Shown one piece after another: positions 25,721 to 45,570 of a stretch of DNA of 64,000 nucleotides; within the stretch, counting starts at the first letter, position 1; each line of letters starts with the position of its first letter. Source of the DNA: Pachyseris speciosa (taxonomy: Eukaryota > Cnidaria > Anthozoa > Scleractinia > Pachyseridae). The notes beneath the pieces are model-generated. The model was not told the origin of the DNA and ran no database searches. It was given only the letters and a program-made list of their open reading frames with translations. A program made the translations under genes and the position numbers. Location: positions 1,243,501-1,307,500 of the forward strand of contig JAEMWC010000049.1 in assembly GCA_016490735.1 (NCBI GenBank), read 5' to 3'.

Positions 25721-25726
25721 GTGGTC
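25721..25726. other. Left target-site duplication of the Polinton
   Basis: GTGGTC, identical to 45565-45570. Six bases is the length typical of Polinton/Maverick integration. Confidence 0.95.
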
Positions 25727-25789
25727 AGTAGTATAGTGTTTGGGGGTACGAGATCAATTGATCTCGTTTTCCCCAAACACTATACTACT
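25727..25789. repeat. Terminal hairpin-forming palindrome, left end
   Basis: The outermost 63 bases fold on themselves: AGTAGTATAGTGTTTGGGG at 25727-25745 pairs with its complement at 25771-25789, and CGAGATCAATTGATCTCG forms an inner palindrome. The arms are joined by unequal bulges (GTA on one side, TTTT on the other). The same structure is at 45502-45564. Confidence 0.9.
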
Positions 25790-25810
25790 GCCTTCTGGTC
25801 TCGTATTCTG

Positions 25811-25985
25811 GAATATATAGTTATTTAATTTGATGGAATATATAGTTATTTAATTTGATGGAATATATAGTTATTTAATTTGATGGAATATATAGTTATT
25901 TAATTTGATGGAATATATAGTTATTTAATTTGATGAAATATATAGTTATTTAATTTAATGGAATCTATAGTTGTTCAATCTGATG
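25811..25985. repeat. Seven 25-bp tandem repeats in left TIR
   Basis: Unit GAATATATAG-TTATTTAATTTGATG. Five units are identical and the inner two are diverged. Mirrored at 45306-45480 in the right TIR. Possible role in end recognition; not known. Confidence 0.95.
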
Positions 25986-26148
25986 GAACCAAGGTCTGCA
26001 CACTTCATAAAATGCGTGACATTCTCGGAAAAATCACCAAGCGTGACATTCTCGGAAAAACAGGAAATGAGTCATCGCCTATAGCTATTATTTCTCACGT
26101 GGAACCATCCGATGGTTACATAAAAATAAAATATCTCATATAATATAG

Positions 26149-26712
26149 ATGAGTTGTAATTTAGTAATCCACAATGAATTGAAGAATATGGGGGAGTTGA
26201 CATGTCCTTTTTGTGATCAGCTATTGGTCAAAGTTGTTAAAAGTGTGAAAGTACCTTGCTGTGATAAACAGAAAATGTTTAATGATGATGGTGAAAATGT
26301 TTGTCTAAATTGCGGTTCAGTCCACAGCTATGACTATTGTAAAGAGTACGTTGACTTTCATAATAATATGTATAAAATACGGCGAAAATCTGTATATCAT
26401 CGGAAGTACCATATTGAAAATGTGATAAATGGTATATGTTGTAAGAATGGACTTCAAATTTCTGTAAAAGATAAAGGCAAAATATTGAAAATATTCCAAG
26501 AGATAGACACTGTCCTTCCTTTGGTGAATAAGAATCGTAAAAGGATGATAAGTGCGAAATTTATGCTTAAGCAAATATTTTTAATGCTTGATCTTCCATT
26601 TGATAAAATAATAGTTACTAGATCAAAAAAGACGCTTGGATTTTATGATCGATATTGGGTTGAGATTCTATTGTTGAGATTTGATAAGATTATTAGTATT
26701 ATCAAGCAGTGA
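26149..26712 (+). CDS. VLTF3-like late transcription factor
   Basis: 187 residues. The N terminus has paired cysteines (CPFC at residue 20, CC at 37, CLNCG at 52) that look like a zinc ribbon. The C-terminal two thirds is helical, with a spaced pattern of VKDKGKILKIF, RKRMISAKFMLKQIFLML, SKKTLGFYDRYWVEILL, which fits the VLTF3-like family of nucleocytoplasmic large DNA viruses, where it drives late genes. No shared name can be proved without a profile search. ATG at 26149 follows an A/T-rich stretch, TCTCATATAATATAG, resembling but not matching the TCTAA motif of the structural genes. The stop overlaps the convergent gene 26702-27187 by 11 bases. The frame is intact. Confidence 0.5.
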   Translation: MSCNLVIHNELKNMGELTCPFCDQLLVKVVKSVKVPCCDKQKMFNDDGENVCLNCGSVHSYDYCKEYVDFHNNMYKIRRKSVYHRKYHIENVINGICCKNGLQISVKDKGKILKIFQEIDTVLPLVNKNRKRMISAKFMLKQIFLMLDLPFDKIIVTRSKKTLGFYDRYWVEILLLRFDKIISIIKQ

Positions 26713-27187
26713 ATTTTTCATCATATTTCAGTAGGTACTTATCAATAATTGGACTATTGTCAGTCACATAATCATCGATATTCTTCATTGAGATTTGTAT
26801 ACTTGAAGCATCAAAATCACCACTTCTCAACTTGTCTTTTATTGAATTGAGTAGATGTTGATAGCTTTGATAAGCATATGTGCAATTCTGGATTTTCAAA
26901 TCTAGGTTTTTATGCTTCATCCACCCTTGTATCAAAAGTGCAGCTGTACTGATGGCTACCAAACTAACACCACCTGTTGCCACACTTGTGGCGAGACCCC
27001 CAGTTGCAAAGATGATGGACAAGGAATTCCCCAGTAATTTCCATTTTTTGAACCGTTTAACAGCCTGTTTATGAGCCCAACACTTTCTGTGATATGTGTG
27101 GTAATAGGCTTTTAATTCATTTACCTGATCTTCTGTTAATTCACCTGAAATATGGTTCCAGCTGAATATGCTTTTTCGCTCTTTCAT
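26702..27187 (-). CDS. Two-membrane-segment protein of the Polinton
   Basis: 161 residues. An N-terminal amphipathic helix, then two close hydrophobic segments separated by a glycine turn (LLGNSLSIIFATGGLATSVA and GGVSLVAISTAALLIQGW), then a helical cytoplasmic tail. The architecture recalls SLATT-type two-segment proteins, but it could equally be a virion membrane or entry-associated protein; I cannot decide. It starts 9 bases after the stop of 27197-27616, so the two may share a transcript. Intact frame, not preceded by the TCTAA motif. Confidence 0.6.
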   Translation of the reverse strand: MKERKSIFSWNHISGELTEDQVNELKAYYHTYHRKCWAHKQAVKRFKKWKLLGNSLSIIFATGGLATSVATGGVSLVAISTAALLIQGWMKHKNLDLKIQNCTYAYQSYQHLLNSIKDKLRSGDFDASSIQISMKNIDDYVTDNSPIIDKYLLKYDEKFTA

Positions 27188-27196
27188 ACAATATGC

Positions 27197-27616
27197 TTAT
27201 ATAACGATTCTGTTCAACACACAGTACCACAAACCAGACAATTGTCCACTTAGAGGTGACAATTTGTTAAATTTCGTTGTCATGAAACGGGGGAAAGCAT
27301 AAGAATATCCTCTGTCAAGTGAATGTTTGACGTAGAATCGACCGAAAGCATCATGTAATATTGCATGTGTTTGCAACACATTAATCCATCCAAGAGTATG
27401 CTCCAACAAATGTGTCAGGCAACCATCACCATATCCAATTAATCCAATGTCTTCATGCTCCAAAAGGATATCTCTCACCTCAACATACTTGTTAAAATGT
27501 TTGTGATATAGAAACTGATAAACCAAAGCTGATTTCAAAATCCTCTTGTCAACACCAGGGTTTTTCCGTTCGGCATCCCGAGTAAACCATCTCACATATC
27601 TAATTATTTTGTTCAT
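27197..27616 (-). CDS. Polinton protein of unknown function
   Basis: 139 residues, basic and aromatic-rich, soluble-looking, with no signal peptide. It includes GYGDGCLTHLLEHTLGWI and HDAFGRFYVKHSLDRGYS. The start ATG (27614-27616) overlaps the last 17 bases of the fibre gene 27600-28610 in another frame, which suggests translational coupling or shared transcription. I recognise no family. Confidence 0.55.
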   Translation of the reverse strand: MNKIIRYVRWFTRDAERKNPGVDKRILKSALVYQFLYHKHFNKYVEVRDILLEHEDIGLIGYGDGCLTHLLEHTLGWINVLQTHAILHDAFGRFYVKHSLDRGYSYAFPRFMTTKFNKLSPLSGQLSGLWYCVLNRIVI

Positions 27617-28610
27617 TTATATTATATCGTTGGATTAAAATTTGATGATGATCTGAAATTGTTTTTTCGTCTAATATAGAATCCAAGTACACACAGAAAA
27701 AAATAACACTACCGTCAAGAGGTGCGATGGAGCTAGGATCCAAATCACCGAAAGTCATTTGCGTGCTACCAGTTCTATTAGCAGCTGTAAAACTTCCAAT
27801 ATGTTTTTTATTCCAATAGATTTTACTTGTGTTTGTTTTTGGAGAAGATAAATTATCCCAGTGAACAGACAAGCAGTGCCAAACATTTATTTGACCCAAA
27901 TCATTTACTGAATAATCTGCTATTTTTCTGAAACTTTGTATAGATGCTGCTGGACCAAAATATACACAATTTGATTCATCAACACCGCTTATTGCTAAAT
28001 TTGAACCATTGTAATAGCTGACAAACTTGTCATATCCTCCATCATCGTGGCCAAAAAGCCCATTTTTCCATGGATTACCACCAGTATTTGAATTCAATTT
28101 ATAAACAATGAAAATATTGACAGCATTATTATTCAAATTAACTTGACTTATCATTCTCTGTGATCCATTAAAGTCTAAATAATAACGTCCATTATGTTTC
28201 TCAGCCTTGGTACAAACAGTGGGTCTTATGTTCAAAGTCGGTTGCGTTGCATTATTTTCTTCATTCGAGAGATCGTACAATGTTTCAACTTTTCTGTCTG
28301 CATTCATATCTAGAAAATTATTATTCGCTCTGTCGATTTGATAAGTACATTTAGAGTATAATCTGATGAATTCAGAAACCCACAAATCCAAAAAACTATC
28401 TCTGACAATATCTGAAACTTGTGATTTGATTACAACATGATCAGAATCATTGCCTGCTTTTACATTAGTCAAATGTTTGTTTCCAAGATCATAGTGACCA
28501 TCTTGTGTTAATGTAAAACCATTTCCATTATCACCTTTAGGACCAATTGCACCAGTATCGCCTTTATCACCTTTATTATCTTGATTTTGTGGAGAATTAA
28601 AAACTCCCAT
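27600..28610 (-). CDS. Virion fibre-like protein 2 (collagen-like stalk, lectin-like head)
   Basis: 336 residues. MGVFNSPQNQD is followed by Gly-X-Y triplets (NKGDKGDTGAIGPKGDNG), a short repeat with DLGNKHLTNV, then about 220 residues with the beta-strand pattern of a concanavalin A/laminin-G-like domain (YYLDFNGSQRMISQ, WHCLSVHWDN, IYWNKKHIGSF). This is a plausible trimeric fibre for binding cell surfaces. The N terminus MGVFN is shared with fibre 1, probably the virion-anchoring part. The ATG follows TCTAA by 11 bases. The frame is intact. Confidence 0.75.
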   Translation of the reverse strand: MGVFNSPQNQDNKGDKGDTGAIGPKGDNGNGFTLTQDGHYDLGNKHLTNVKAGNDSDHVVIKSQVSDIVRDSFLDLWVSEFIRLYSKCTYQIDRANNNFLDMNADRKVETLYDLSNEENNATQPTLNIRPTVCTKAEKHNGRYYLDFNGSQRMISQVNLNNNAVNIFIVYKLNSNTGGNPWKNGLFGHDDGGYDKFVSYYNGSNLAISGVDESNCVYFGPAASIQSFRKIADYSVNDLGQINVWHCLSVHWDNLSSPKTNTSKIYWNKKHIGSFTAANRTGSTQMTFGDLDPSSIAPLDGSVIFFCVYLDSILDEKTISDHHQILIQRYNINEQNN

Positions 28611-28626
28611 ATAATATTATTTTAGA

Positions 28627-31600
28627 TTAATTCATAATTACTTCAAGTGTGAATGCTGTATCAAATGCTCCACTATTAGGATGTGAATAGTCAATTATAA
28701 AATAGCCTCTCGATAATGATTTATTGACGTTAACCGTTGTGATGTTTCTACTTAAAGAAGATTGTCTGTGTTCATAAATAGTTGCTGGTAATGGCAAAGG
28801 CCCACCACCTTCAGCTTTTGTCTTGAAGTAAAATATTCCGGGTTTTGTTCCTTGTATGATATACATTTTCTTAATATAAAAGTTATTGTTATGAATGACT
28901 AAAAAATCAGAGCCATTTATCAATACAGGCTTTAAAGCATTCTTATTATGTCCTTGTTTGGCTTTGACAGAGCAATTTAAATATTGTATTTGACCGATTA
29001 TATTATTCCCATTCAAATTTAGATCACCTCCTAATTTTGGCTGATAGAGAGCAAATCCTCCGAGATCGAAAGCTGTTTCCATAATTACACCTGTAACGCT
29101 TGAACGAAATAGATTCAAACTATTATTATGAATTCTATAGCCATTCAGATTTAAATCACCGCCAAGTTTAGCCTCACTTATAAGAAAGCTGTTCATATTA
29201 ATGTTATTTAGCATTGTCAATTCACCATTTTGACCATCAAATAAGTTTGATGAATTATTAATCAAGGCATGTCCATTCAAATCTAAATCAGTTTGTAATT
29301 GTATTTTTTCATTACGATTTTGAAAGGTTCAGAGAAGTCGTAAACACTTGATGGAACGTCTACAGCTTCAAAATCAATACCATATGCAACACAATGAACT
29401 TTGTACTTATTTGGATAAGTTGGGTTAGCATTAATATGAATCGTACAATATAAATATTCAGGTGGTGAACTTGCTGATGGTTTTTCAATCCATAATAAAT
29501 ATCTCGAATGATCTTCATTTCTGTTATCAAATTTTCTCCCTACAGTTTTATGAATTGTAATTCCACCAGTTGCACTGAATGTTACACTACTAAGACTCAT
29601 TCCTTCATAATCAGGAAATAGCCATTCAAGAATGAAAGTGTATTTTCCATCTTTTATTGTGTACATATTAAATCCAATTCTAGCTCTGTAAATATGATTA
29701 GCTTCTTTATTCAAGTCTATATCAATGACCTTTTTTGAAATCAAATGTGGTGAACGAGGTAAATTGACATATCCATTAACTTTCAAGCCATATTCAGTAC
29801 TGACTTCATCGATATCATTCATCAAATATTTGAAAGCATTCTTTGGATGAGAAGCAGATGAAATATGACTTTTTTCTAATTGATCTAAATTTACGGCATC
29901 GGTTTTATTTGTTCCTTCTTTTAAGTTAATGATTTTATGCCCTCCAAGTTTCATATCTGCTGCCATCGCATTTGTTCCATTCAATAATAAAGTGTTCGAT
30001 CTAATAGCTATTCCAGCTTGATTTAAAACTCTAAAGTTCACTGCATCAGTTTCATTCACCACGTCCGCTAAATTAGTCACTCTATTTCCACCCATCGACA
30101 AATCGCCATACATTGCAGTCGAACCGTCTCGTCGAAGAAAATACTCGTCAGTATATCTTTTTGTAACCGCATCATCTAAATTGACGGGTGGAGCAAGATC
30201 AGTAATGGCATTGTTGTTCATATTCAGATTTTGTTGTGCAATCGTATCGAGTTTGGTTTGCAACCTCTGGTCCACATAACTTTTGTTTACAGCATCTTGT
30301 GGGTTTGAGGGGTTATCCTGCAGGTTGAGGATTTTGTTTAGTTTCATGTCAATATTACTGCCAAATGCAACATGGCCGTTTTCAATTTCATAAGCCGGGT
30401 CATGGAGAAAGTAAGACAAATTGGTATGATAGCCATAGGCCCCATAAACGATGATATGTGTTTTGGTGTTAGACGCAGGAGCTGTGCTAAAAAGTAAAAC
30501 ATCAATTGACGCTTGACCGCCACCAGTTTTTTCGATTCGGAAAAGCTTCTTCATATAACCATCAACATACGGGGTTTTGAGAAAAGGTTTTTGAAATGGC
30601 TGTCCCGCATCTCGTATATTCAATGTGCGAAGATCGAGCCCAATTGTAGCTTGGCGTGGGTCTGATGGTGAGTAAAACTCAGTAACAAATGTGTACCGTC
30701 CATTTCTTAAAGATGTCACATTAAAACGAATTTTGGATGTAAAGTTGCCTCTTCGTTTAATGAAAAAAGACAATGATGACTTGTTTATGTGATAAGGTGA
30801 TCTGTCAAAATTCTCAATTTGAAGGTTTGTTGCACCACTAACTGCAGAAGACTTGGATATGTCTTTTAACAGAAAAGCGAATGGGTTGCGTTGAGCTCCT
30901 GATGCTGAAAAAACAAGGTCATCAACATACTTTTTGTTGGCAGAATCTTTATCAGAGTTTGGAGATCCAACATTTGTTATTTTATTGTCACCCATGTCAA
31001 GATCTCCAGTCATTGCAACACTTCCATCTTTTTTAAGAAATGGTGAAACATCAATGCCAGTAATTCCAGCAATTTCAGTATCAACATACCCCTTTGTGGC
31101 TGTATCATTGTTTGCTGTTGGCGCTGCTACATTAGTCAATTTGTTACCTCCAAGATTCAAATCAGAAGTCATTGCAACGCTTCCATCTTTTTTCACAAAG
31201 TTAGAATTAACATATGCTATATTCGCTTTATTATTCGACAGATATGCGACAGCATCATCAACGTATTTTTTATTTGCAGTCTTGTTGTAATATAGGGTGT
31301 GCAACATTGACTATTCTAAAAAACTCATTTTAAGCTCACGATCAAATACAATTCTTCCTTCTTCTATTTCAAAAGCTGGGTCGTGAATATGTGATAAAAT
31401 GATATTAGAAAATCCATAAACACCATAAACTATAACATAATGTTTTTTATTATTTTGTAAATATGGTGAAATCAACAATAACTCCATTGATGTGGAACCA
31501 TGACTTGTTTTTTCAAGGAAGAATATTCTTTTGAGATAACCATCAACAAGATGAGTCTTTGGAAATGCTCTTTTTATTGAATCCTTTCTTTCAATTAAAT

Positions 31601-32174
31601 TAGATGACAGATTGTCGTCATCGACTGTTGCATTATTTGGGCTACCATCAGTATAAAACTCAACAACTAAAGTGTACTTTGAAACTTCCAATTGTGTCAG
31701 ATCAAAACGAAGAACAGTTGTAAGACCAGCAGTAGGAATAACAAAAGACAAGGCTATTTTATTAAATGAGTAAGGGCTTTTGTCAAAATCTTCCAATTGC
31801 AGATTATTCGCATTTCTAAGAATAGTTGTTTTTGATGTATCTTCAAGAAGAAATTTGAATGGATTAACACGTGTTCCTTCAATTGATAAAACAGCATCAT
31901 TAACATATCCCAAGTTAGCAGAATCATAATGATTTACTGGATCACCAACATATGTCAAACGTTTATTTTCAATGTCATAATTACCATCTTGTGTTAATCT
32001 AAATCCATCACCTTTGGGACCAACAGCTCCAGTAGCTCCTTGTGGACCAATTGCACCTGTATTACCTTTTGGACCTCTATCACCTTTTTCACCTTTGGGA
32101 CCAATTGGACCAGCTGGGCCTCTTTCACCAGTTTCTGTTTTATCTTGATTTATTTGAGCATTAAAAACTCCCAT
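28627..32174 (-). pseudogene. Virion fibre-like protein 1 (long, two breaks)
   Basis: About 1180 codons. It begins MGVFNAQINQD, then about 15 Gly-X-Y triplets. Many copies follow of a phage-tail-fibre-like shaft repeat, whose core is DGSVAMTGDLDMGDNKITNV followed by DSANKKYVDD. Beta-rich head domains repeat three times (for example about 31840-31380, 30870-30380 and 29830-29290). Breaks: an in-frame TAG at 31311-31313 only two codons before the next part, and a shift where the frame ending at 29283 passes to the one ending at 28627. The head domains and shaft repeat suggest growth by internal duplication. The ATG follows TCTAA by 12 bases. Confidence 0.75.
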
Positions 32175-32186
32175 TATATCATCTTG

Positions 32187-32261
32187 TTAGATTAATTTTT
32201 CGATTCTTTCTGTTTTTGGATTCTCCTGTTTTTCAACATTTTGGAAATTATTGATTGCCAT
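32187..32261 (-). CDS. Possible 24-residue Polinton microprotein
   Basis: An open frame of 24 codons, MAINNFQNVEKQ onward, very polar, ending with TAA at 32187-32189. It is too short to call by itself. Support comes from the preceding TCTAATCTAATATTATATG, which has the exact spacing and near-identity of the fibre 2 start. That motif overlaps the stop region of the ATPase. It may instead be the 5' part of a leader for fibre 1. Confidence 0.4.
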   Translation of the reverse strand: MAINNFQNVEKQENPKTERIEKLI

Positions 32262-32277
32262 ATAATATTAGATTAGA

Positions 32278-32915
32278 TTAAACAGCACCATAAAAATTTC
32301 TCTTGATTGTTTTCATCGGCTTGTCAACATAACAGAAGGAATATGGTTTTTTGGTTGCTTCAATGTATTTCTTCTTGTCGATTCCAAGCTCCTGTGCAAT
32401 CAAGTTCCTTTCTCTTGAGGATGGGAAATCATAAAGGCAGAAGTGACTGCAATTGAGTCTGATTGATTTTGGACAGCCATAGAATGATTGTGTGAGATAT
32501 ATGACTGAACAGTTCTTGTGTCTCCCTGAATGAAATAGCTTATGATTTGATCTTGTTTTTTATCAGTGACAAAATCATCAAAAACAACCAATCGCTGCAA
32601 ATCTGTGTCTTTTATTTGTTCAACTGGCAATATCTCTTCTTGACTGCAAACCAAGGCAGGATATCCAATGTGACTGCTTATTTCATCCATTACTTTCCGA
32701 AGATATTTGTACTTGTCTTGATCCAAATTTTTTGCATAAAGATGTATCTGATCATAATAAACCAATGGTTCCATAATCAGATGCATGAACAATGTTGTCT
32801 TTCCAGATCCAGAATTACCAGCCAATAACATTCTAAATGTATCTTTTGGCATATACGGATACAACTGTCTGAATGAATTCTTTAAACCCTGAATATCATA
32901 ATTAGGGATTTCCAT
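32278..32915 (-). pseudogene. Genome-packaging ATPase (A32/FtsK-like), frameshifted
   Basis: The N-terminal frame has the Walker A motif LLAGNSGSGKTTLFMHL near residues 29-45 and Walker B as RLVVFDDFV near residue 110. This fits the A32-like ATPases that pump DNA into capsids in Polintons and large DNA viruses. Near 32540 the conserved reading passes to another frame and continues to TAA at 32278-32280; the ORF ending at 32400 has a non-family tail. Total length about 212 codons. It shares a 36-base promoter region head-to-head with the gene at 32952, and its ATG follows TCTAA by 11 bases. Confidence 0.85.
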
Positions 32916-32951
32916 ATGTAAATAGTTTAGATTAGTCTAACACAATTGTAT
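32916..32951. promoter_or_regulatory. Divergent late-type promoter between ATPase and coiled-coil gene
   Basis: Only 36 bases separate two diverging ATGs. Minus strand: TCTAAACTATTTACATATG. Plus strand: TCTAACACAATTGTATATG. Both have TCTAA exactly 11 bases before ATG, the two TCTAA words lying side by side in the centre. Confidence 0.65.
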
Positions 32952-33796
32952 ATGGATATAGAACGAATGAAAAGGCTTCTTAAAAGTGGAATTGAAGCCG
33001 GAAACAAAACAAGAGAAGTTCGTGATGTTATCAAGACTTATGAATACAGAAAACAGGATGCTTATGATACAACATCAGAATTGCTGAAACCCTCTATTGA
33101 TGTCCAGAAGAGTGTGAAAGAAAGTGTCGACAAAAAACAGGATGAAGTCATTAAACAGTTGAAAAAAAATCAAAAAGCCTTAACATCTGGTTTTGAAGAT
33201 CTTATGCTATTAAACACGTTACCTGAATCAGTACCTATGAAAACAACATTACCAATTGATTACAAACCTAAAATGATGACTGAAACAGAAGCACCATATA
33301 AGTCGAATCTTGATAAAGGTTTTTCACTTGAGGATATTCAAACATTGATGAAACATAATTTAGCTCCTCCATCACAGATATTTAAATCATATATTGATGG
33401 AACAATCGATATTAATGAGTATAACAGAAATATTGGTGAAATAACCAAAGATATTGGAAGAAAAAAAGCTCATCTATCAACAACCAAAACAAATAGGGAT
33501 AAAAATAAAGAAAAGATATATCAATTGACTCAAGAGATCAAATTATTGCAAAAGTACCGAAAAAGAATTGGCGCCGTTGAGGAAGGTGCACAAACTATTG
33601 GTTCAGGCATGGGAAGAAGAGGTGCATTTTTGGGTGACATGCTTTCAAGACTACAGTTGCTTGGTGGATCTATTTCAGCCGGCAACAACAGCAAAATGTT
33701 CAAAATGAATTCACAAAAATATTGCATACATTGAACAGACTGGGAATCCTGAAAACCGGTGAGTTGAATAAAATAATGATGAAATATCTAATGTAA
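32952..33796 (+). pseudogene. Coiled-coil virion-associated protein, 3' frameshift
   Basis: About 280 codons. MDIERMKRLLKSGIEAGNK opens a mostly helical, charged protein with two coiled-coil stretches (about residues 55-85 and 155-200) and a glycine-rich GSGMGRRGAFLGDMLSRLQLLGG. Near 33700 the reading shifts, and the better end is TAA at 33794-33796. I chose ATG 32952, not the TTG six bases upstream, because it fits the TCTAA-N11-ATG spacing. Polintons often have an uncharacterised gene here between ATPase and penton. Function unknown. Confidence 0.65.
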
Positions 33797-33802
33797 AAGT
33801 AT

Positions 33803-34590
33803 ATGACAGAAATTTCATTACGATTCAACAGTAAAAACAGAGACAAAATTGGTGTCAGCAAGAGTCATGATTTTGAAAAAAGATTCAATACACCTCTTAA
33901 ATTAACGAATGATTTGAAATATGAAATGGCTGTGAATGTCATCAATATGACATACAGTTGGTACAATATCAGAGATATTTTTGGGAATAATCAAATTAAA
34001 TACAGCTATGACAAAGGTGTAAACTGGGAAACAATAACATTCGTTAACGGGATGTATTCATACGACGATATCAATAGTTACATTCATAAGTATATGAAAA
34101 AAAAAACCATGTACTGAATCCATCTGAAACAGACAAAAAAAATTCAAGTATGGTATTAACATATTTCGTTTTGTCAACATATCGCATTTTGATTGAACTC
34201 AATGAAAATTATCGTGTGGATCTGAGAAATAATGATTTCAGAAAACTTATCGGTTTCGATTCAAAATTAGTTCCAGCCACAGAATATGGAACAAATCTAC
34301 CTGATATTACAAGAGGAGTAGATGAAATTTATATCAATTGTGATTTGGTGACAGATAGCATTGTTGATGGAAATAGCACAAATACAATCGCTGTTATTCC
34401 TGTCACAGATCTCGTTAGAAGTTTACCTTTCACTTACAAACCTCGTTTTCTTTCATGGAATCCAGTCTCAACACATAATATCAGCTCAATACGCTTTTAT
34501 GTCACAGACTCTTCTAGAGCTCCAGTCGATTTAAATGGGATAGATTGGTATATTGAGTTATTCTTGAGAGGACAGAATTATAAAACCTAA
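33803..34590 (+). pseudogene. Minor capsid (penton) protein, frameshifted
   Basis: About 262 codons in two frames joined near an A-run at 34097-34106. MTEISLRFNSKNRDK starts a beta-rich protein with SWYNIRDIFGNNQIKYSYD; the second part ends IDWYIELFLRGQ. The size, predicted single jelly-roll pattern and place just before the major capsid gene fit the Polinton penton. ATG follows TCTAA by 11 bases. The homopolymer site could be a sequencing error. Confidence 0.75.
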
Positions 34591-34596
34591 TAGTAT

Positions 34597-34827
34597 ATGA
34601 AACGGTTTGAGTTTAAAAAATATGAACAACATGGTGAAGGTATTGTGACTGATATGATCAAAACAGCTGGAAAAAAAGCAGCAACAACAATTGGTGAACA
34701 TGCTGGCAAAAAAGCTGGCGACAAAATCATAGAACTTTTGAAAAAGAGAAAGAGTGGAACTGAGAGTGTGAGCCAGACTGGTGGTTTAATCAAAAGAAAG
34801 AGAGGTCGACCTCGTAAAATAAAATAA
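34597..34827 (+). CDS. Small basic AT-hook protein (core-protein-like)
   Basis: 76 residues, strongly basic, with a helical AGKKAATTIGEHAGKKAGDK stretch and a C-terminal AT-hook, RKRGRPRK. Such proteins bind DNA in the minor groove; in adenoviruses and Polintons small basic proteins condense packaged DNA. The start at 34597 follows CCTAATAGTATATG, a shortened form of the late motif. It lies between penton and major capsid genes. Intact. Confidence 0.65.
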   Translation: MKRFEFKKYEQHGEGIVTDMIKTAGKKAATTIGEHAGKKAGDKIIELLKKRKSGTESVSQTGGLIKRKRGRPRKIK

Positions 34828-34849
34828 CTTTTATCTAACACAATAATAT

Positions 34850-36131
34850 ATGTCAAACTATCGTGACTCAAAATATATCGAAAGATATGAAGATGTAGTG
34901 TTCGAACTAGAGACAGCACTTAATACTGTAGTAGCAAACAATGCTCATCAGAGAAAACAGGTTACCGTTTCGTTGTTGATAACAGTGGAGAGACTACACC
35001 ATTTGACTGGTATAATGCCCGTTTTAATGTTATTTTCAAAGAAAATAAGCTTGCAGATGGAGCTAACATTGCTGCTGCAGATCGAAATGGTATTGTTAAT
35101 TCAGTTCACGCTCTTATTAACACCATTAATGTGAAAATGAATGGTCTTGATGTTTATGAATGCCGAGACGCTAACCAGGCCACAAATATTAAGTCATTGC
35201 TTGAGTATTCACAGGGTTATGTTGTAAGTCAGGGAACCAATGAGTTCTTCTATCTTGACACCAGCAGAGGTGCTGAAAACAGAGTGGCACAAGCTGCTTA
35301 TAACAAAGGATTCTCAGATCGTAAAGCTTTGCTTAATGATGGTGGTGAAGTAAATGCAGAGATAGCATTGAACAGATACGGTTTTTTCAAGAGCTTTTGG
35401 GATGAACTCATGCCTAACTCAAAAATAGAGGTGAAATTGACACTTGAGAGTGATGACAATATGATTTGGCAAGCTACTGATGAATGTCGTGTGGTACTAA
35501 CTAAATTCCAGCTAATTGTTCCTCGTATTATTTTTAATTCTACGGGAAAGTCCTTATACATGAGCAAGTATCTTGACAACAGAAAGTGGACTTACATGAG
35601 AGAAATGGTTGAGAGAGGCAATTCAACAAGACAACAGACTGCCAATTTCCGTATTTCCACAGGAATAAACAAACCCAGGCATGTCTTTGTATTCATCATC
35701 AATGATGCAAGTGATGCATCTCAGACAGCCAATAAATTTCTCTATAACACATTCTCAGTTGCAAATAACCAAACTTTGACTGATTGTTATCTTGAAGTTG
35801 GCAACGGAAATGATTATCCAGAGGTTCATTATAAACCATCAACAGAACCAACAAGAGTATTTAGAGATGTTTTGAAATATGTTCAAGCTGTAAATGATTT
35901 CAGTGAAAGTACCCTTCTTAACAGGGGCAATTTCGGTACAATATTCCCTTTCATTTATTTGATCTGACAAAACAGAAACAGGATATTAAAGATGGAATGA
36001 CAAAACTGACTTTCAAATACACTTTGAGTGCTGCAACAAATGCTGATTACAGTGTGTATGCATTGGTCCTCTATGAGCAGGATATTGAGATGAGAAAGAC
36101 TGATGGAAAATTAATTCTGAGATCAATGTAA
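34850..36131 (+). pseudogene. Major capsid protein (double jelly-roll), two frameshifts
   Basis: About 427 codons. It starts MSNYRDSKYIERYEDVVFEL. The main part, 35131-35945, has regions such as DVYECRDANQATNIKSLLEYS and IEVKLTLESDDNM and RKWTYMREMVERGNS, with beta-strand rhythm and size fitting the double jelly-roll capsid protein of Polintons. The frame changes near 34950 and near 35950; the last 60 codons end at TAA 36129-36131. The ATG follows TCTAACACAATAATATATG, almost the same word as at 32952. Without the breaks it would form the icosahedral shell. Confidence 0.8.
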
Positions 36132-36199
36132 ATTAAATAATTAAATAAATTAAATGATTGTTTTATATTAAATACAATTTAGTATAAACATATATTATA

Positions 36200-37018
36200 T
36201 GACTACTTATCATCCTCATGGAGTAAGACTTTCAGGAAGTCAGAAGGAAAGGCTTGCAAAAGCTATACAAACAAATTCACCGGTGGAGAGTTGGATCAAA
36301 TGATGTTGACAAAAACACAGATAAAAAAATTAGCCAAATCACAGAGAAATGGAACAGGTGCTGATGTAAAGATATCCAAAGCACAGATCAGAAAATCAGT
36401 CCAAGAAGGAGGCTCTCTTTGGTCCAGTCTTTTTTCACTTGGAACAAGACTATTGCCTTATGCAGGTAAAGCAGTAGCTAAAGCGGCTCCAGCATTGGCT
36501 ACAGGTGCTCTTTCTTCATTAGCAAGTCTCGGCATTGATAAACTATTTGGAAAGAAACAAAAAGGAGGATTTCTTATTCCTAATGCCAATTTATCCCAAT
36601 TATTGAATGTAGGAAATTTATTGAATACGAGACAGATGGCTGATGTTATCCAAAAAATGCAGTATGGTGGAGACGTTGTTATAAAACCAACAAAAGCGCA
36701 GACTGGAAAGGGTATTGGAACAATACTGCGAGCATTGGTATCCTTTAGCCATAGAAGCAATCAAAATTAACTGGAAAAGGTTTGCATGTTGAAAGCAGCC
36801 GTCCAAGACGGTCAATACCTGTTCATGTTCCAGATGACATTGTACCCAGAAAGAAAGGTGGGAAACATGCTATGATTCCATGGCAATCTCCTCCTGTTTT
36901 TGGTACATGGAATAACCCAATCGGTTATGGAATGAAAAAAAAAAAAAAAGGAAAAGGACTTCTACTGGGCAAAAACAGTCCATTCAATTCAATCCCCATA
37001 CTAGGAACCATTTTGTAA
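36200..37018 (+). pseudogene. PX-like Polinton structural protein, frameshifted
   Basis: The first frame opens MTTYHPHGVRLSGSQKERLA; near 36280 it passes to the frame holding LTKTQIKKLAKSQRNGTG, then a hydrophobic Ala/Leu-rich stretch (AAPALATGALSSLASLGIDK) and a Gly-rich end. Another shift near 36745 leads to the frame ending at 37018 with NSPFNSIPILGTIL. It sits between capsid and protease, where Polintons carry the uncharacterised PX protein. The hydrophobic stretch could interact with membranes. No TCTAA motif; upstream is CATATATTATATG. Confidence 0.6.
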
Positions 37019-37474
37019 ATAAACCCTTATCCAACTTTGATTTAATCAATTGGGTTAAACAACTTGGAATAAAACATTTTAGAGGAGTATTTTCAAGAGA
37101 CAATCTGCCGAACCTGAAATGAAAACAATGAATGTGGGATAGTCAATCTTGATTCCAAAATTGGACCTGGTACTCATTGGGTTTGTTATAGGAATTTCAA
37201 AAATGATAAATACTGTGAATACTTCGACTCTTTCGGTTTAATGATGCCAACAGAAGTACAGAAATACATGGCTGCAAGCGGTAAACAACTTGAATACTCT
37301 GGTGATGAGATACAAGAAAGGGAATCAGTATTATGTGGATATTGGTGTTTGTACTATCTTCTTGAGAGACAAAAAGGCAGATCCATTCTTAATACAATAC
37401 ATAATGCTGAATTTGATCCAACAGACACAAGAGTCAATCACAGATTCATCATAGACTACTTCAAAAATATCTAA
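37019..37474 (+). pseudogene. Adenain-like cysteine protease, one frameshift
   Basis: The first frame (from before 37019, overlapping the PX gene end) gives LSNFDLINWVKQLGIKHFRG. After a shift near 37115 the second frame shows GTHWVCY with the catalytic His, EYFDSFG with the acidic residue, and ESVLCGYWCLYYLL with the catalytic Cys, in the order of C5/Ulp-fold maturation proteases. This enzyme would cleave capsid precursors. The start codon is unclear because of overlap. Ends DYFKNI at 37474. Confidence 0.8.
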
Positions 37475-37486
37475 CTTAATGGTATA

Positions 37487-37645
37487 ATGGTAAAATCATA
37501 TTGTGTGAAACAGAAGAAGCAGACTGAGTGTGTACCAGGAAGTGAAAGATATCAAAAGACAAAAAATGGTCGAACTGTGATGAAATGTACTTGTGCTGAA
37601 TGTGGAATCACAAAGACTAAATTTGTCAGAAATCGGGGAAACTGA
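37487..37645 (+). CDS. Small zinc-ribbon protein
   Basis: 52 residues with KSYCVKQKKQ, KNGRTVMKCTCAECG and TKTKFV. One cysteine pair is clear (C-x-C-x-x-C), the other is reduced to a single Cys (YCVKQ). ATG follows TCTAA by 12 bases. It lies directly before the phospholipase gene, and the phospholipase frame is open upstream back to within this gene's stop, so the two were probably one protein before a one-base shift near 37640. Confidence 0.6.
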   Translation: MVKSYCVKQKKQTECVPGSERYQKTKNGRTVMKCTCAECGITKTKFVRNRGN

Positions 37646-37689
37646 ATAGCCCGTCTGAAGGGGCGGGCATACTAGATTCAGCCGCAGAT

Positions 37690-38427
37690 ATGGCGCTAAC
37701 AGGATTCTTAGAACATGGAGTCCCTTATTTAGCAAAGAAAGGTGTAGAAATGGGAAGATATTATGCTTCTGAAGCAATGAGAAATCCAAAGCTGCAAAAG
37801 AAATTAATTGACAAAGGACTTTCCCTCGCAAAGCCTGCAATCACAAAGGTTGGTAAAGAAGGCTTAATGCAATTGAGCACTGCTATTAGACCCAAACGCT
37901 CTGACAAGAAAAAAATGTATAAAACAGATATTGCTGGAGTTGATTATACACGTGGTGGCTCATTGCTTGGAGATATCATGTATGCAAAACCAGAAGATAT
38001 ACAAAAATGGGTAGCTAAAATCAATAAAATGGGAGGCGCGATTGATATCCATAAGGTAATTGGCAAGCTTCCTAAACCAAAAGCAGGTTGGACACCAAGT
38101 AAATATAAATATATGGGACCATACAATCCATTGCATGAGCAGTTGGAATATGATCCAAATACTGGCGAGGTCTTGAAATGGAATGTACAACCTTACAATA
38201 AGGTGGATGAAATAGCAGCTTACCACGATATTTGTTATGATATGGGAAAAAATAAAGGCGATTGTGATAGAACAATGGTCGAGTCACTAGATCAAATACC
38301 ATATGGTGAGATGCCAAAATGGGGTCAAACAGCTAGATTCTTAATCGACAAAAAACAGAAACTTGGTCTCGGTGTTTCAAAAAACGGAAAAAGCCGTCGA
38401 GTGAAGAAAACTGGCAAGAAAAACTAG
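37690..38427 (+). CDS. Phospholipase A2-like virion protein
   Basis: 245 residues from ATG 37690, probably longer upstream. An N-terminal helical part (LAKKGVEMGRYYASEAMRNP) is followed by a phospholipase A2-like core near residues 138-185: YMGPYNPLHEQL (calcium-loop-like), then AAYHDICYD with the catalytic His-Asp pair, and KGDCDRTM. Parvoviral VP1 and some Polinton-like elements use such domains to breach endosomes. A basic tail (KSRRVKKTGKK) overlaps the integrase reading frame. The catalytic pair is intact; fusion to the upstream zinc ribbon is inferred. Confidence 0.7.
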   Translation: MALTGFLEHGVPYLAKKGVEMGRYYASEAMRNPKLQKKLIDKGLSLAKPAITKVGKEGLMQLSTAIRPKRSDKKKMYKTDIAGVDYTRGGSLLGDIMYAKPEDIQKWVAKINKMGGAIDIHKVIGKLPKPKAGWTPSKYKYMGPYNPLHEQLEYDPNTGEVLKWNVQPYNKVDEIAAYHDICYDMGKNKGDCDRTMVESLDQIPYGEMPKWGQTARFLIDKKQKLGLGVSKNGKSRRVKKTGKKN

Positions 38428-39323
38428 CTGATGAATTACATGCACCCATAAAACGAAATTTCACTCGGCGGCGTGTGATTGTAAATAAAATTGATGAAAT
38501 ATGGGCAAGTGATCTAGTTGAAATGCAACAGTTCAGTAAATGGAATAAAGGTTATCGATATCTTCTTATGGTTATTGATGTCTTCAGCAAATATGGTTGG
38601 ATTGTCCCATTGAAGGATAAGAAAGGTGAATCTGTCACTGAAGCATTCAAAACAATATTCAAGGAAGGCAGAAAACCACAGTATTTATGGGTCGACAAGG
38701 AAAGGGACTTGCTAGAGAAACATAGTGTACAGATGTACTCAACTGAGAATGAAGAGAAGTCATCAGTAGTTGAAAGATGGAATAGGACAATTAAATCCAA
38801 AATGTGGAAGCAGTTCACTGTTCAAGGTAATACACAGTATTTAGACATGTTACCAAAATTAGTGAAACAGTATAATAATACCAAACATTCAAGCACAAAG
38901 ATGACACCCGTTGAAGCATCTGATAAGAGGAATGAAGGAACTGTTTACTTCAATTTGTATGGTGATATGAAAACATTAAAACAGAAACCAAAATTTAAAA
39001 TAGGTGACAAGGTCCGAATATCTAAGTATAAACGGAATGTGTTCGACAAGGGCTATACACCAAATTGGACTGAAGAAGTGTTTACAGTTGATAAGATCCA
39101 GTACACTAATCCAATAACATACAAACTAAAGATCTCAAAGGTGAAGATATTGAAGGGAGTTTTTATGAAGCTGAATTATTGAAAGCCAGACAGGATGTAT
39201 TCCGTATTGATAAAGTCATTCGCAGAGATTACAAGAAGAAACAAGCTTTGGTGAAGTGGAAGGGTTACAGTGACGAATTTGAACAGTTGGATACCGTTCA
39301 AGGATTTAAAAGACATATTATAA
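38390..39323 (+). pseudogene. Retroviral-type integrase with chromodomain, deleted and frameshifted
   Basis: The conserved reading starts in a frame overlapping the end of the phospholipase gene (no ATG seen), then gives DEIWASDLVEMQQFS with the first Asp, a second Asp in YLWVDK at about 38692, and Glu in SVVERWNRTIKS at about 38772. Only 25 residues lie between the second Asp and Glu, against about 35 in the family, so about 30 bases are missing. Near 39120 the frame shifts into a chromodomain (FRIDKVIRRDYKKKQALVKW), with a further shift near 39272; the likely end is TAA 39321-39323. Integrase would insert element ends. This copy is defective. Confidence 0.82.
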
Positions 39324-39472
39324 AGAGAAAATTATCTAACATATATGTGAGTAGACCCTACAGTAGTACATACTGTCATTTGCTATTATGTAGCCAAGAA
39401 TATTATTATTCCTGACTATATTTAAACACAGGTCGAAAATGAATTAAAAAAATAAATTACTATAATATACAA

Positions 39473-40311
39473 ATGCAAAAATATTCCTACAATAATAAAG
39501 AATTGGATGTATCAATAGATTGTTATCTTGATGATAAAATGACATTTGGTTCAGAGGAAGAGACATAGCTATTATTCTCGACTATAAAAATCCACAAAAG
39601 GCAATCAAGGATCATGTTTTATCTGATGATAGAATCTTAAGAGACCACAAAATAAGCATAAATTCACGATGTAACAAAACGTTACCTCGTGCTGAGGCCA
39701 CTGATTCACGATGTAACGAAACGTTACCTCGTGCTGAGACCATTGAAAAAACTTTCAAATGTTTTTTTATAAATGAATCAGGATTTTATTCACTAATACT
39801 GTCCTCTAAAAAACAGGAAGCAGTAAAATTCAAACATTGGGTTACATCAAAAGTATTACCATCAATCAGAAAACAGGGATATTACAGACAGTTCAATGAT
39901 AGAAGTAATAACATGCTGATGATTGAAAGTGAAAATGATCTGCACTGCAAGATTGTATCATTCATCAGAAAAAAATATGAAGATGCTTTAATGGTGGCGG
40001 GATTAGGTGAAAATCAAATAAGCTCAAATATGAGAATCAGAAGTTATAACAAAGGATATATGGCTGGTCAGTGTGATTTAATGCTGTTGAATCCCACAAG
40101 AAAATACAATGCTCTTTGTCTTGAATTTAAAAGCCCAACAGGTGTGTATAAAGTGTCAGACAAACAGTCTGATATGAAGCTAATGTATGAGAAAAACAAA
40201 TGCAAATACCTCATGAGCAATAGTTTTGAAGACTTGATTCATGAAATAACCAAACACTTGGAAGAAAGCAAATTATACTTATCACGAAGGAAAGATTTAA
40301 AAGAAAATTAA
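39473..40311 (+). pseudogene. BRO-N domain fused to VRR-NUC-like nuclease, frameshifted near start
   Basis: The first 27 codons from ATG 39473 end at a stop near 39568; conserved reading resumes one frame over. It has FFINESGFYSLILSSKKQEA and KHWVTSKVLPSIRKQGYY, the BRO-N (Bro/KilA-like) DNA-binding signature. From about 39913 a nuclease-like domain follows: MAGQCDLML, then LCLEFKSPTG, then KQSDMKLMYEKN, matching the D...ExK...Q layout of VRR-NUC proteins. Between the two halves is a 42-base tandem duplication (39662-39745). BRO proteins are common in large DNA viruses. Function here is inferred as DNA-binding nuclease. Confidence 0.65.
39662..39745. repeat. 42-bp in-frame tandem duplication in BRO-N gene
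   Basis: Units 39662-39703 and 39704-39745 differ at three or four bases and keep the reading frame, repeating SRCNxTLPRAE. Each unit contains GTAAC-n5-GTTAC, a small hairpin. Confidence 0.85.
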
Positions 40312-40344
40312 ATTGATATAAAAATAAAAATATATAGATTATAT

Positions 40345-40542
40345 ATGGAGAATCAAAATGTTAAGAGAGGTCGGGGAAGGCCTAGAGTTCTCAGTGATGA
40401 GGAAAGAAAAAAACACAAGACTACCTATATGCTAAATAAAGAATGGTACTGTAACATATGTAACACAGGACGTAACTACACAATGGCAGGAAAATCTTGT
40501 CATATTAAAACAAAAAAACATCAAAAAAATATTCTTCAATAA
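40345..40542 (+). CDS. AT-hook and C2H2 zinc-finger protein
   Basis: 65 residues. KRGRGRPRVLS is an AT-hook at residues 7-17, and YCNICNTGRNYTMAGKSCHI with KTKKH downstream is a C2H2-type finger. It is likely a small DNA-binding or regulatory protein of the element. The frame is intact, the start follows TATATAGATTATATATG, with no TCTAA. Confidence 0.65.
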   Translation: MENQNVKRGRGRPRVLSDEERKKHKTTYMLNKEWYCNICNTGRNYTMAGKSCHIKTKKHQKNILQ

Positions 40543-40646
40543 TTACAATTCAAAAGGATCCAGTAATTGGATCAATTGAATTCTCAACCATATTTAAACG
40601 CAGACGGAAATGTATTAAAGAAATAATAACTATAGATACATTATAA

Positions 40647-43600
40647 ATGAAAAAAATTATCGAAACTAGTAGTAATATGGATAAGAAAAGTCTCAAAAAA
40701 TTGAGCAAATCCAAGCTAATCGAATTGCTGTTGAAGCAGCAGAAAAAGCCTAAAGTTATTATAGTTGATGACACAAAACCAGTACCTAAACCAAGAACAA
40801 GACCAATTCCCGCCCCAAGGACGAAAAGACCAACTGTGAAAGAATTGATTGATTATTTTGAGAGGAAAAGATTACCAGCTCCACCTGCTGAATGGTTGGA
40901 AGAAATAGAGCAATTGAAAAAGAGACCAATTCCCGCCCCAAGAGCCAAAAAGCCTGTGCCGGTTCCAACACCCAGAACAAAAATAGAGCAAACAGAGAAA
41001 GCTCTGAAAGGTTTCACTAAGTCTTTTGAAATCAGTATAAAAAATAACAAAGACCCGCTTGCGCAACTGCAAAACGCAAGAAAGGCTGTTGCATATAATA
41101 TTATAAAATCGTTGAATGAAATGAAAGGACTGAAATTTGTTGAAACACTCAAGGTAATATTTGCAAAAATGACTGATGGAGAAATAGAATACAAAACCGC
41201 ATATTTCAACAGTGTAGCTCAAACAATTGTGAATAATCTGGAAGTAACTGAATCACTACAGTTGTCAAAAGACCAAATAATGAATAAGATTGCAGTTTGG
41301 GTATCTGAAGGTTCAGGTTGGACTGTTGATTCAGTTGATAGTCATTATCTTAATGTTGTGAAATATGCGCCAATGAAGGGCTCCTCATACATTAAACTAC
41401 CGAATGAACTCAGAAACAGTGCAAAGGGTTTGAATTAACTTGAAAAATGAGGATAATGAATGCTTCCGATGGTGTCACATCAGACACCTGAACCCACAAG
41501 AGAAATACCCACAGAGGATTAAAAAAGTTGACAAAAAATACATTGAAAAATTGGATTATACAGGGATTGAATTCCCAGTTGCAACCAAGCATTACAACAA
41601 GATAGAGAAACAAAATGAGATCAACATCAATGTTTTTGGTTATGAGAATAGACAGCCATATCCAATTTTTGTTTCAAAAGAGAAATATGAAGACTGCTTG
41701 AATCTGCTTCTAATAACTGAAAATGAAAACAAGCATTATGTGCTAATCAAAGATTTCAATAAGTTCATGTACAATCAAACAAAGCACAAAGAAAGAAAAC
41801 ATTTTTGTATGCACTGTCTTCAATGCTTCAGCTCTGAAAGGGTGTTGAATGATCACAAGGACAACTGCATGCAAGTAAATGGCACACAGGCAATAAAAAT
41901 GCCAAACAAAGATAACAGCATACTGAAATTCAACAACTTTCATAAACAACAGCGGGTACCATTTGTTATATATGCTGACTTTGAGGCCATCACTGAGAAA
42001 ATACATGGTTGTCAACCCAACAGTGATAAATCATATACTGAAGCCTATCAGAAGCATACTGACTGTGGCCACGGCTATAAAGTAGTTTGTTGTTATGATG
42101 ATAAATACAGCAAACCAGCAGTAATATACAGGGGTGAAAAGGCTGTGTACAAATTCATGAAAGCTATGTTGGAGGAGGTCAAATATTGCAAGAATGTTGT
42201 GAAAAAAAATTTTAACAAACCATTGAAAATGACTAAAGATGATGAAGAGAAATTCCGAAAAGCCAAAGTTTGTCACATCTGTGATAAGAAATATACTGAA
42301 AAGGATATTAGAGTCCGAGATCATTGTCACATCACTGGTAAATACAGAGGTTCTGCTCACCAAGATTGTAATCTGAAACTCAGAGTGAACCCAGAAGAAA
42401 TAAAAATACCAGTCATATTTCACAATCTAAGAGGCTATGATAGTCATTTTATTATGCAGGAGATTGGAGCTATTGTTAAGAAGCACACTTACAAAAACAA
42501 GAAAGGTGAAGACTGTCAAATGAATATCAATGCTATCCCAAATAACATGGAGAAGTATATGGCTTTCATGCTTGGCAACCACTTGACCTTCATTGATAGT
42601 TTCCAGTTCATGAGCTCCAGTTTGGAAAAACTTGTAGGCAATCTACCTAGAGAAGCCTTAAAATACACCTCACAAGAGTTTAAGGGAAAGGATCTTAATC
42701 TGATGGCACAGAAAGGTGTTTATCCTTACGACTACATGGACAGTTTCGATCAATTCAATCAGAAGCTGCCATCAAAAGATGAATTCTATAGCATACTGAG
42801 TGATACGCATATATCAGATGAAGACTACACACATGCTCAGACTGTTTGGAAAGCATTCTCTTTGAAAAACATGGGTGATTATCATGACCTGTACCTTAAA
42901 ACAGATGTACTCCTACTGGCTGATGTATTTGAAAACTTCAGAAAAACATGCCTTGAGTACTATAAACTGGACCCGTGTCACTATTTCACGTCTCCCGGTT
43001 TATCTTGGGACGCCATGCTAAAAATGACTGACATAAAATTAGAATTGATGACAGACATTGATATGTTCCAGTTCATTGAAAAGGGTATGCGTGGAGGAAT
43101 CAGCTATATAGCCAACCGTTACGGTAAAGCAAATAATAAATACATGAAAGAGTATGACGAGAAGGCGCCCTCGACGTACATCGTGTATCTTGATGCTAAT
43201 AATTTGTATGGTTGGGCTATGAGTCAATATTTACCAACCGGTGGTTTCAAATGGTTGACACAAAAACAGATCAATAATTTAGACCTAACTAAGTATAAAG
43301 AAGATGGCAACAAAGGTTTGATACTTGAAGTTGACCTTGAATACCCCCCAGAGTTACATGATCTTCACAATGACTATCCACTGGCACCGGAAAAGGTCAA
43401 AGTGACTGGGGACATGCTATCAGATTATTGTAAAAACATAGCGAAGAAATATAAAATATCAACTGGTCTGGTACATAAACTGATACCAACATTAAGCAAC
43501 AAAGAAAAATACGTGCTCCATTACAGGAACCTCCAATTATATACTGATCTCGGTTTGAAAATAACTAAAATCCATCGAGTTCTAGAGTTCAATCAGTCCG

Positions 43601-45564: not shown

Positions 45565-45570
45565 GTGGTC
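45565..45570. other. Right target-site duplication of the Polinton
   Basis: GTGGTC, matching 25721-25726. Confidence 0.95.

Follow-up and report, generated by a model that had tools for sequence, protein, structure and literature searches.

A TCTAA-N8-TATA motif at gene starts of a coral Polinton, probably a virus-type late core promoter

A motif shared by gene starts of one Polinton

The DNA studied here, which we call the window, is a stretch of 64,000 nucleotides (nt) from the coral Pachyseris speciosa (contig JAEMWC010000049.1, positions 1,243,501 to 1,307,500), and it holds a whole Polinton element. As expected of a Polinton, the element has terminal inverted repeats (TIRs) and a 6-bp target duplication and encodes an A32-like packaging ATPase (PF04665, 31.8 bits with a cut-off of 22.8, E 1.3e-7). 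An initial annotation had reported that eight of its genes begin with TCTAA, 11 or 12 bases and then ATG (N11 and N12, the spacing being the number of bases between TCTAA and ATG). All eight pairs were found exactly where they had been placed, six of them N11 and two N12, and a matrix scan added three degenerate sites. In window positions, the element and its putative late motifs are:

25727..45564: whole Polinton element, 19,838 bp, with TIR arms and the 6-bp duplication GTGGTC at 25721-25726 and 45565-45570
28608..28626, minus strand: TCTAAAATAATATTATATG, start of fibre 2 at 28610, N11
32172..32191, minus strand: TCTAACAAGATGATATAATG, start of fibre 1 at 32174, N12
32259..32277, minus strand: TCTAATCTAATATTATATG, start of a 24-aa microprotein at 32261, N11
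32913..32931, minus strand: TCTAAACTATTTACATATG, start of the A32-like ATPase at 32915, N11
32936..32954, plus strand: TCTAACACAATTGTATATG, start of the coiled-coil gene at 32952, N11
33787..33805, plus strand: TCTAATGTAAAAGTATATG, start of the penton gene at 33803, N11
34834..34852, plus strand: TCTAACACAATAATATATG, start of the capsid gene at 34850, N11
37470..37489, plus strand: TCTAACTTAATGGTATAATG, start of the zinc-ribbon gene at 37487, N12
34581..34599, plus strand: degenerate TAAAA-N8-TATATG in the same register, start of the basic-protein gene at 34597 (matrix scan)
36183..36201, plus strand: degenerate TATAAACATATATTATATG, gene start at 36199 (matrix scan)
27614..27634, minus strand: degenerate TCCAA-N8-TATAAATG, gene start at 27616, N13 (matrix scan)

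The ATPase and coiled-coil genes form a divergent pair with 36 bp between their start codons, in the window and in its clade of copies. Two of the degenerate sites have exact counterparts in other copies of the element: the basic-protein gene bears exact TCTAA in L131, and the 36199 gene, which has only TATAA in the window, does so in L131, L132 and L137.

Alignment of the eight sites on TCTAA showed A, A and T at +8 to +10 (7/8 in each column) and T, A, T and A at +13 to +16 (7, 8, 8 and 8 of the eight). In the N11 class the A at +16 is already the A of ATG, and the start codon overlaps the box (TATATG, once CATATG); in the N12 class it follows the box (TATAATG). The constant unit is TCTAA-N8-TATA, not TCTAA-N11/12-ATG. 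The positions in the initial annotation were correct, and its anchoring on ATG was not: the data anchor on the TATA box, and its two spacing classes are a single geometry. Spacings of 9, 11, 12, 13 and 14 likewise represent one geometry, because the ATG overlaps or follows the box.

This geometry was retained in a larger tally of 71 late starts, 11 from the window and 60 from pieces of other copies (L130-L151). Exact TCTAA was found at 56 of the 71, with spacings of 9 (1), 11 (47), 12 (6), 13 (1) and 14 (1). Eight bases after it stood TAT in 48 of the 56, CAT in six, and TTT and TGT in one each. All nine starts with a spacing other than 11 had TAT at exactly this distance. In addition, the coiled-coil genes of 15 divergent copies, with a spacing of 9, read TCTAA-N8-TATG: the ATG has moved two bases nearer and the distance from TCTAA to TAT is unchanged. 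The spacer often holds a second TCTAA five bases on, as in TCTAATCTAATATTATATG at 32259-32277 and at other starts too; AAT at +8 to +10 could be what is left of it.

The motif was not readily produced by chance. TCTAA-N11-ATG occurred 13 times in the window with 3.27 expected, a number reached by none of 100 shuffles; six of the matches are the claimed gene starts, five lie outside the element, and two (39021 and 43896) lie in the element inside open frames, where no gene begins. TCTAA-N12-ATG taken alone showed no window-wide enrichment (3 versus 3.61 expected). An unbiased test considered every pentamer at every spacing in the 40 nt upstream of the ATG-started open reading frames (ORFs) of the element. 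TCTAA at 11 was the top pair, preceding 5 of 31 ORFs of at least 60 aa, and any pair reached five in only 4 of 5000 dinucleotide shuffles. The fixed spacing thus beats shuffled upstream DNA, the comparison by which the initial annotation had asked to be judged. Among the 18 ORFs of at least 100 aa, TCTAA at 11 preceded four, which was equalled in 38 of 5000 shuffles. In the 44 kb of the window that flank the element, the exact TCTAA-N8-TATATG was absent. Three of the five TCTAA-N11-ATG matches outside the element, at 7649, 20225 and 21493, have the form TCTAACCAACTGAG[CG]TATG and were set aside as tRNA-like; from their look, they may be tRNA-derived repeats.

The window was scanned with a matrix built from the eight sites (columns -5 to +16), the first 21 columns of which also served to rank the 2347 ATGs of the window at spacings of 11-13. 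Ranks 1-8 were the eight training genes, followed at ranks 9-13 by 34597 (basic protein), 10596, 27616 (a 139-aa gene), 40677 and 36199, so that three of the five non-training hits are gene starts. The other two were false: 10596, outside the element, opens a 10-aa frame and is a chance match, and 40677 lies inside the ORF that starts at 40647. The best-scoring false ATG, at 13.9, scored the same as rank 9. Leave-one-out scores ranged from 8.2 (ATPase) to 22.6 (fibre 2), and the ATPase score by itself would not stand out.

Motif and spacer in other copies of the element

Genome-wide counts were made in the 983.7-Mb genome (2368 contigs), with the pattern read backwards as the control. TCTAA-N8-TATATG occurred 7957 times (4020 forward and 3937 reverse) versus 512 (265 and 247) for the control. 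With a spacer of N9 the count was 575 (309 and 266) versus 493 (244 and 249). Among the 7957 exact motifs, most of the 100 places listed cluster like further copies of the element, and two ATPase searches gave 4158 and 3338 first-look candidates, of which 150 were scored in each, indicating a high copy number. A search with the ATPase protein found 1195 proteins at E of at most 0.001.

Eight pieces of other copies (L130-L137), with ATPases 51-99% identical to that of the window, were found through the motif and therefore give no measure of its frequency. They do show its spacing. TCTAA at 11 preceded the ATPase in seven of the eight (TCCAA at 11 in the other) and the coiled-coil gene in seven (at 9 in the other). 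The penton gene had TCTAA in six of seven and TCTAC in one, and the seven capsid genes had TCTAA at 11 in five, at 12 in one, and TGTAA in one. Every fibre start in the pieces, 12 of 12, had the motif at 11 or 12. The zinc-ribbon gene was found in five pieces, with TCTAA at 12 in two, at 13 in one and at 14 in one, and without an ATG in the last. The microprotein is 83% identical over 23 aa in L135, where its motif is identical. At the 27616 gene, the aligned start in the sole copy aligned has no ATG. In L131, L132 and L137 the spacer between the ATPase and coiled-coil genes is 48-64 bp long and dissimilar in sequence, yet each gene has kept the motif or a variant; at third codon positions the ATPases of these pieces are approximately 0.62, 0.43 and 0.58 identical to that of the window (the alignment pieces overlap). 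By comparison, none of 23 ATGs that merely open gene pieces (PRO 4, INT 7, PolB 5, VRR 7) had the motif.

Copies chosen by ATPase homology gave a measure of conservation. Among the 150 scored of 4158 candidates, the 30 best loci, which include the window itself, had TCTAA at 11 before the ATPase in all 30, before the coiled-coil gene in 28 (the start string was absent in two) and before the penton gene in 29 (start string absent in one). At their fibre start, 24 had the motif, two did not, and four had no start string. A further 20 window-clade copies at 80-89% identity, hand-picked from the same 150 rows, had TCTAA at 11 in 20/20 before the ATPase, one of them with ATA for ATG, and in 20/20 before the coiled-coil gene.

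The divergent sample was drawn with another ATPase query (P0011, from the protein search), for which 150 of 3338 candidates were scored. Twenty of the first 35 rows were taken by place only; of the 15 skipped, two did not begin at residue 1, five were already in the window-clade list, and eight were passed over by no rule. Rows were chosen or skipped without sight of their DNA. No two of the 20 upstream stretches were alike. The ATPase was preceded by TCTAA at 11 in six and at 9 in two, TCCAA at 11 in eight and at 12 in one, TTTAA at 11 in one, TATAA at 13 in one, and none of these in one. Exact TCTAA before the ATPase is therefore the minority state in divergent lineages (8/20), and TCCAA is the commonest variant. 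The coiled-coil start was present in 18, with TCTAA at 9 in 15 (three with extra copies), at 7 in one and absent in two. Pooling the two sets of 20, TCTAA or a one-base variant preceded the ATPase in 39 of 40 copies. The initial annotation had named loss of the motif or its spacing in related Polintons as grounds against it; among these relatives, all from the same genome, most keep both.

Signals of the other genes and the remainder of the element

PolB, BRO-N, the AT-hook gene and the VLTF3-like gene have no TCTAA start motif in the window, as had been noted. Two of them have a different upstream arrangement there:

39419..39475, plus strand: putative early promoter of BRO-N, TATTTAAA 54 nt and CTATA 13 nt before the ATG at 39473
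40591..40649, plus strand: putative early promoter of ORF 40647, TATTTAAA 56 nt and CTATA 17 nt before its ATG

From its position, we take ORF 40647 to be the N-terminal part of PolB. The string ATATTTAAAC[AG]CAG is common to both and has no other exact match in the window; when up to two mismatches are allowed, its count is at chance level. Including other copies (L138, L140, L143, L145 and L146 bear the signal), TATTTAAA lay 51-58 nt upstream of the ATG in 4/6 copies of BRO-N, 4/5 of PolB and 2/5 of the AT-hook gene, the distance being 53-58 nt for BRO-N and PolB. CTATA followed it by 39-41 nt at BRO-N of the window and L138, at these four PolB starts and at one AT-hook start. None of six VLTF3 upstream stretches contained TATTTAAA; in L146 a related GTTTAAACGCA ... 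AATAATAACTATAG precedes the ATG taken as its VLTF3 start.

The remaining features of interest are:

25727..26008, plus strand: left TIR core, 282 nt, with 25-bp tandem repeats
45283..45564, minus strand: right TIR core
26149..26712, plus strand: VLTF3-like gene (PF04947), without a TCTAA motif, candidate late factor
38379..38473, plus strand: candidate -1 frameshift signal between PX and integrase

The TIR cores are 100% complementary over 282 nt; the arms as detected, 283 nt each, take in one flanking base. In both TIRs the 25-bp tandem repeats (25809-25988 and 45303-45482) bear an outward-pointing AACTATATA that resembles the CTATA of the early-type genes.

The VLTF3-like gene belongs to its family by a narrow margin (25.4 bits with a gathering score of 25, E 1.3e-5), and relatives of 40-94% identity occur in five of six left-end pieces. 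Tail to tail with it lies a SLATT-like two-transmembrane gene (26702-27187, minus strand; PF18181, E 2.5e-4, below the cut-off), which is 67-96% identical in four of the six left-end pieces (L148-L151). The PX protein is phospholipase-like (31.9 bits in Pfam, cut-off 23.9), and two matches fell below their cut-offs, the integrase to rve (PF00665, 20.4 bits with a cut-off of 32.6) and the zinc ribbon to DUF5679 (E 1.5e-4). None of the scanned frames or pieces of capsid, penton, protease and PolB matched the Pfam family expected of it, and these names are ones we assume from the initial annotation and gene order. Residues 153-204 of the long frame called PolB (41767-44460, plus strand) matched recombination endonuclease VII (24.6 bits, cut-off 23.6); the frame matched no Pfam DNA polymerase family at E 0.05. 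The penton (33803-34590), capsid (34850-36131) and fibre (28627-32174) genes appear broken into several frames, despite the identical 282-nt TIRs. This copy would appear to be young but interrupted, or else to contain sequencing errors, and the frames at 31307, 29214 and 34150 look like interior pieces of the interrupted genes.

The initial annotation had also listed PX among the genes lacking the motif. This is not a clean negative, because the conserved beginning of PX has no ATG in the three copies aligned there and the PX frame extends back, still open, into the zinc-ribbon gene (region 37487-37690, plus strand). The zinc ribbon and PX are a single open frame in L141, and in L142 an ATG lies 51 nt before the conserved PX string. 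Downstream, PX and integrase overlap in different frames, and in each of the six copies examined the integrase frame stays open but has no ATG. In the overlap, a slippery heptamer A_AAA_AAC in the PX frame (38379-38385) is followed by a 7-nt spacer and a 13-bp stem. These elements are present in all seven copies found to have the overlap (the window, L131, L140, L141, L142, L144 and L145). All 13 stem pairs are kept in each; two changes on a single side of the stem preserve the pairing, and no pair is changed on both sides. The z-score of the stem is -2.9, compared with 0.3 and -0.7 in adjacent 100-nt stretches. From its sequence, this looks like a PX-integrase fusion made by a retrovirus-style frameshift. 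The zinc ribbon, PX and integrase may together belong to a single late unit under the motif at 37470.

A late promoter reading, its rivals and known systems

We consider that TCTAA-N8-TATA(T)ATG is probably a virus-type late core promoter whose mRNAs would have almost no leader, with the timing, start sites, polymerase and factor inferred from the DNA. The initial annotation had read the split by gene class in this way, and the reading is strengthened by conservation in divergent copies, the exact spacer genome-wide and the presence of TATTTAAA on most PolB and BRO-N genes. The late class would comprise the genes for the fibres, ATPase, coiled-coil protein, penton, basic protein and capsid, together with the 36199 gene and the zinc-ribbon gene, the first of the PX-integrase region. 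A factor that recognises TCTAA would set the polymerase at a fixed distance downstream, and transcription would begin within the TATA box or right next to it. As this box overlaps the ATG or adjoins it, the leaders would be a few bases long at most. Each late gene could then be read from its own cap-proximal AUG even though its neighbours abut; because they abut, a separate mRNA starting just before each ATG would be the easiest arrangement for eukaryotic translation. Most PolB and BRO-N genes and some AT-hook genes have TATTTAAA, in part with CTATA 39-41 nt further on, and the VLTF3 gene of one lineage has a related form of this arrangement, which would suit host RNA polymerase II; these genes would be the first to be expressed. 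Activation of the TCTAA genes would follow, brought about by the VLTF3-like protein or by a partner, for instance the zinc-ribbon protein. Poxvirus late transcription uses a VLTF3-type factor, and the VLTF3-like protein is our candidate for the factor that reads TCTAA.

Several observations weigh against this reading. BRO-N lacks TATTTAAA in L139 and L141, where TCTAA lies 23 and 21 nt upstream, and it has a one-base TCTAA variant at 11-13 in two of five copies. In the window, neither signal is clearly evident before the VLTF3 and AT-hook genes, and the SLATT gene has no clear TCTAA; where the protease gene starts could not be established. Exact TCTAA is found in only three of six copies of the 36199 gene, with TATAA in the other three, and in only one of seven copies of the basic-protein gene, the others having TCTAA altered by one base and spaced at 11-13. 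Every copy read comes from one host genome, and L130-L137 were picked by the motif itself (L137 by its 36199 site). The predicted structure of the VLTF3-like protein was unusable, with a mean pLDDT (predicted local distance difference test) of 41. Lastly, there was no RNA polymerase domain among the scanned frames, although no search was aimed at one, and a VLTF3-like factor would for this reason need host RNA polymerase II or a helper.

The alternatives account for parts of the same data. A signal in the mRNA leader that places the ribosome on the ATG would be in keeping with TCTAA lying 9-14 nt from the ATG at all 56 exact late starts. However, such a signal would be expected to keep its distance to the ATG, and the constant distance is to TAT, in nine of nine off-register starts and in 15 of 18 divergent coiled-coil genes, which leaves a role in translation very improbable. 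We reject the explanation that the motif is a by-product of compaction, in which TAA is the stop of the preceding gene and the spacer merely short A/T-rich DNA. The TAA does end the frames that precede fibre 1 and the zinc-ribbon gene, but no gene stops ahead of the divergent ATPase and coiled-coil starts, which excludes this origin for that pair, and so common a pentamer-spacing pair arose in just the 4 of 5000 shuffles given above.

Two further alternatives retain TCTAA as a promoter. A host factor at TCTAA with a host TATA core, and with neither a viral factor nor late timing, would agree with the lack of a viral RNA polymerase among the scanned frames, and the TATA could suit the host machinery. 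A host TATA box, however, lies approximately 30 bp before the start site, so that late transcripts would start inside coding sequence; in addition, the motif places listed are mostly in element-like clusters, and the window has no exact TCTAA-N8-TATATG outside the element. We regard a purely host promoter as unlikely. Dependence of the virophage kind, with TCTAA as the late promoter of a giant-virus helper that activates the late genes of the element, has a precedent in the TCTA within A/T-rich flanks of Cafeteria roenbergensis virus (CroV) late genes and of mavirus and type-4 endogenous mavirus-like elements (EMALEs) (PMC8547959, PMC5294985), and in the finding that of eight EMALE types only type 4 responded to CroV (PMC10945749). 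But the mavirus motif is described as preceding all genes (PMC6723459), whereas here PolB and, in the window, BRO-N and the AT-hook gene are without it, PolB and BRO-N carry a different signal in most copies, and the element encodes a VLTF3-like gene of its own. A helper is thus an improbable explanation.

If the late core promoter reading is correct, a rigid promoter specific to a gene class and a candidate factor would reside in the same element, making the switching of virion genes testable. The motif would also be a one-line signature for locating Polinton gene starts, in one genome so far, and would tie Polintons to CroV-type giant viruses and to virophages, whose late promoters contain TCTA. 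More tentatively, and in our view less probably than not, a nuclear Polinton without a viral RNA polymerase might run a two-stage programme, in which replication genes are expressed from TATA-type promoters and the VLTF3-like factor then redirects host RNA polymerase II to TCTAA-N8-TATA. Polintons are thought to lie near the root of several groups of eukaryotic double-stranded DNA viruses. If this speculation is correct, the TCTA late-promoter system would predate the polymerases of giant viruses and virophages and would have been inherited from Polinton-like ancestors.

Searches for relatives outside the genome were negative within their scope. No relative was found in viral_contigs by PolB, ATPase, ATPase alignment or a degenerate PolB DNA pattern, in genome_contigs by ATPase alignment, or in phages by PolB. 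A motif scan of viral_contigs (at least 120 stretches), taken together with L001, gave one motif copy in 120 of 121 loci and two in the other, and no multi-copy contig. L001 was the sole viral_contigs match to the divergent-pair pattern and, being a repetitive collagen-like stretch, was dismissed as chance. The literature covered consisted of titles and abstracts, with subscription journals mostly outside it, and described no promoter of an animal Polinton and no switching of virion genes; the terms looked for had zero occurrences in PMC11071296, PMC11071308, PMC9952930 and PMC10120064.

African swine fever virus, which has its own polymerase, and the poxviruses both offer likenesses at the initiation site. 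The late promoter of the former is bipartite and requires a TATA-like sequence there (PMC5294985); the signal of the element likewise has two parts, with TATA at the presumed start, but the promoter as described does not have the TCTAA element. In poxviruses, a TAAAT initiator lies at the start codon and there is no 5' untranslated region (PMC5294985). The element similarly has a putative initiator sequence at the start codon, but it reads TATATG (one CATATG) or TATAATG at the eight sites instead of TAAATG, with TATAAATG at the start only of the 27616 gene and the zinc-ribbon gene of L131, and TCTAA stands in place of the T-rich upstream tract. Mimivirus and Sputnik provide the case of a small double-stranded DNA virus using the late promoter of its helper (PMC6723459), although their late motif, of two 10-nt segments, is unrelated (PMC5294985). 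The closest likeness is to an A/T-rich TCTA core upstream of late or virion genes in CroV and in mavirus and type-4 EMALEs (PMC8547959, PMC5294985), and in ChlorV (PMC13196603): in the element, too, TCTA lies within A/T-rich DNA a short distance before the start codon. It differs from these promoters as described in adding a fifth base and a fixed 8-bp spacer to a TATA at the start codon, and from mavirus, with its motif before all genes, in that PolB, BRO-N, the AT-hook gene and the VLTF3-like gene are without the motif in the window. Within the literature covered, a TCTA-type late promoter was already known, and what appears to be new is its exact bipartite geometry, its use largely by one gene class, and its occurrence in a nuclear Polinton.

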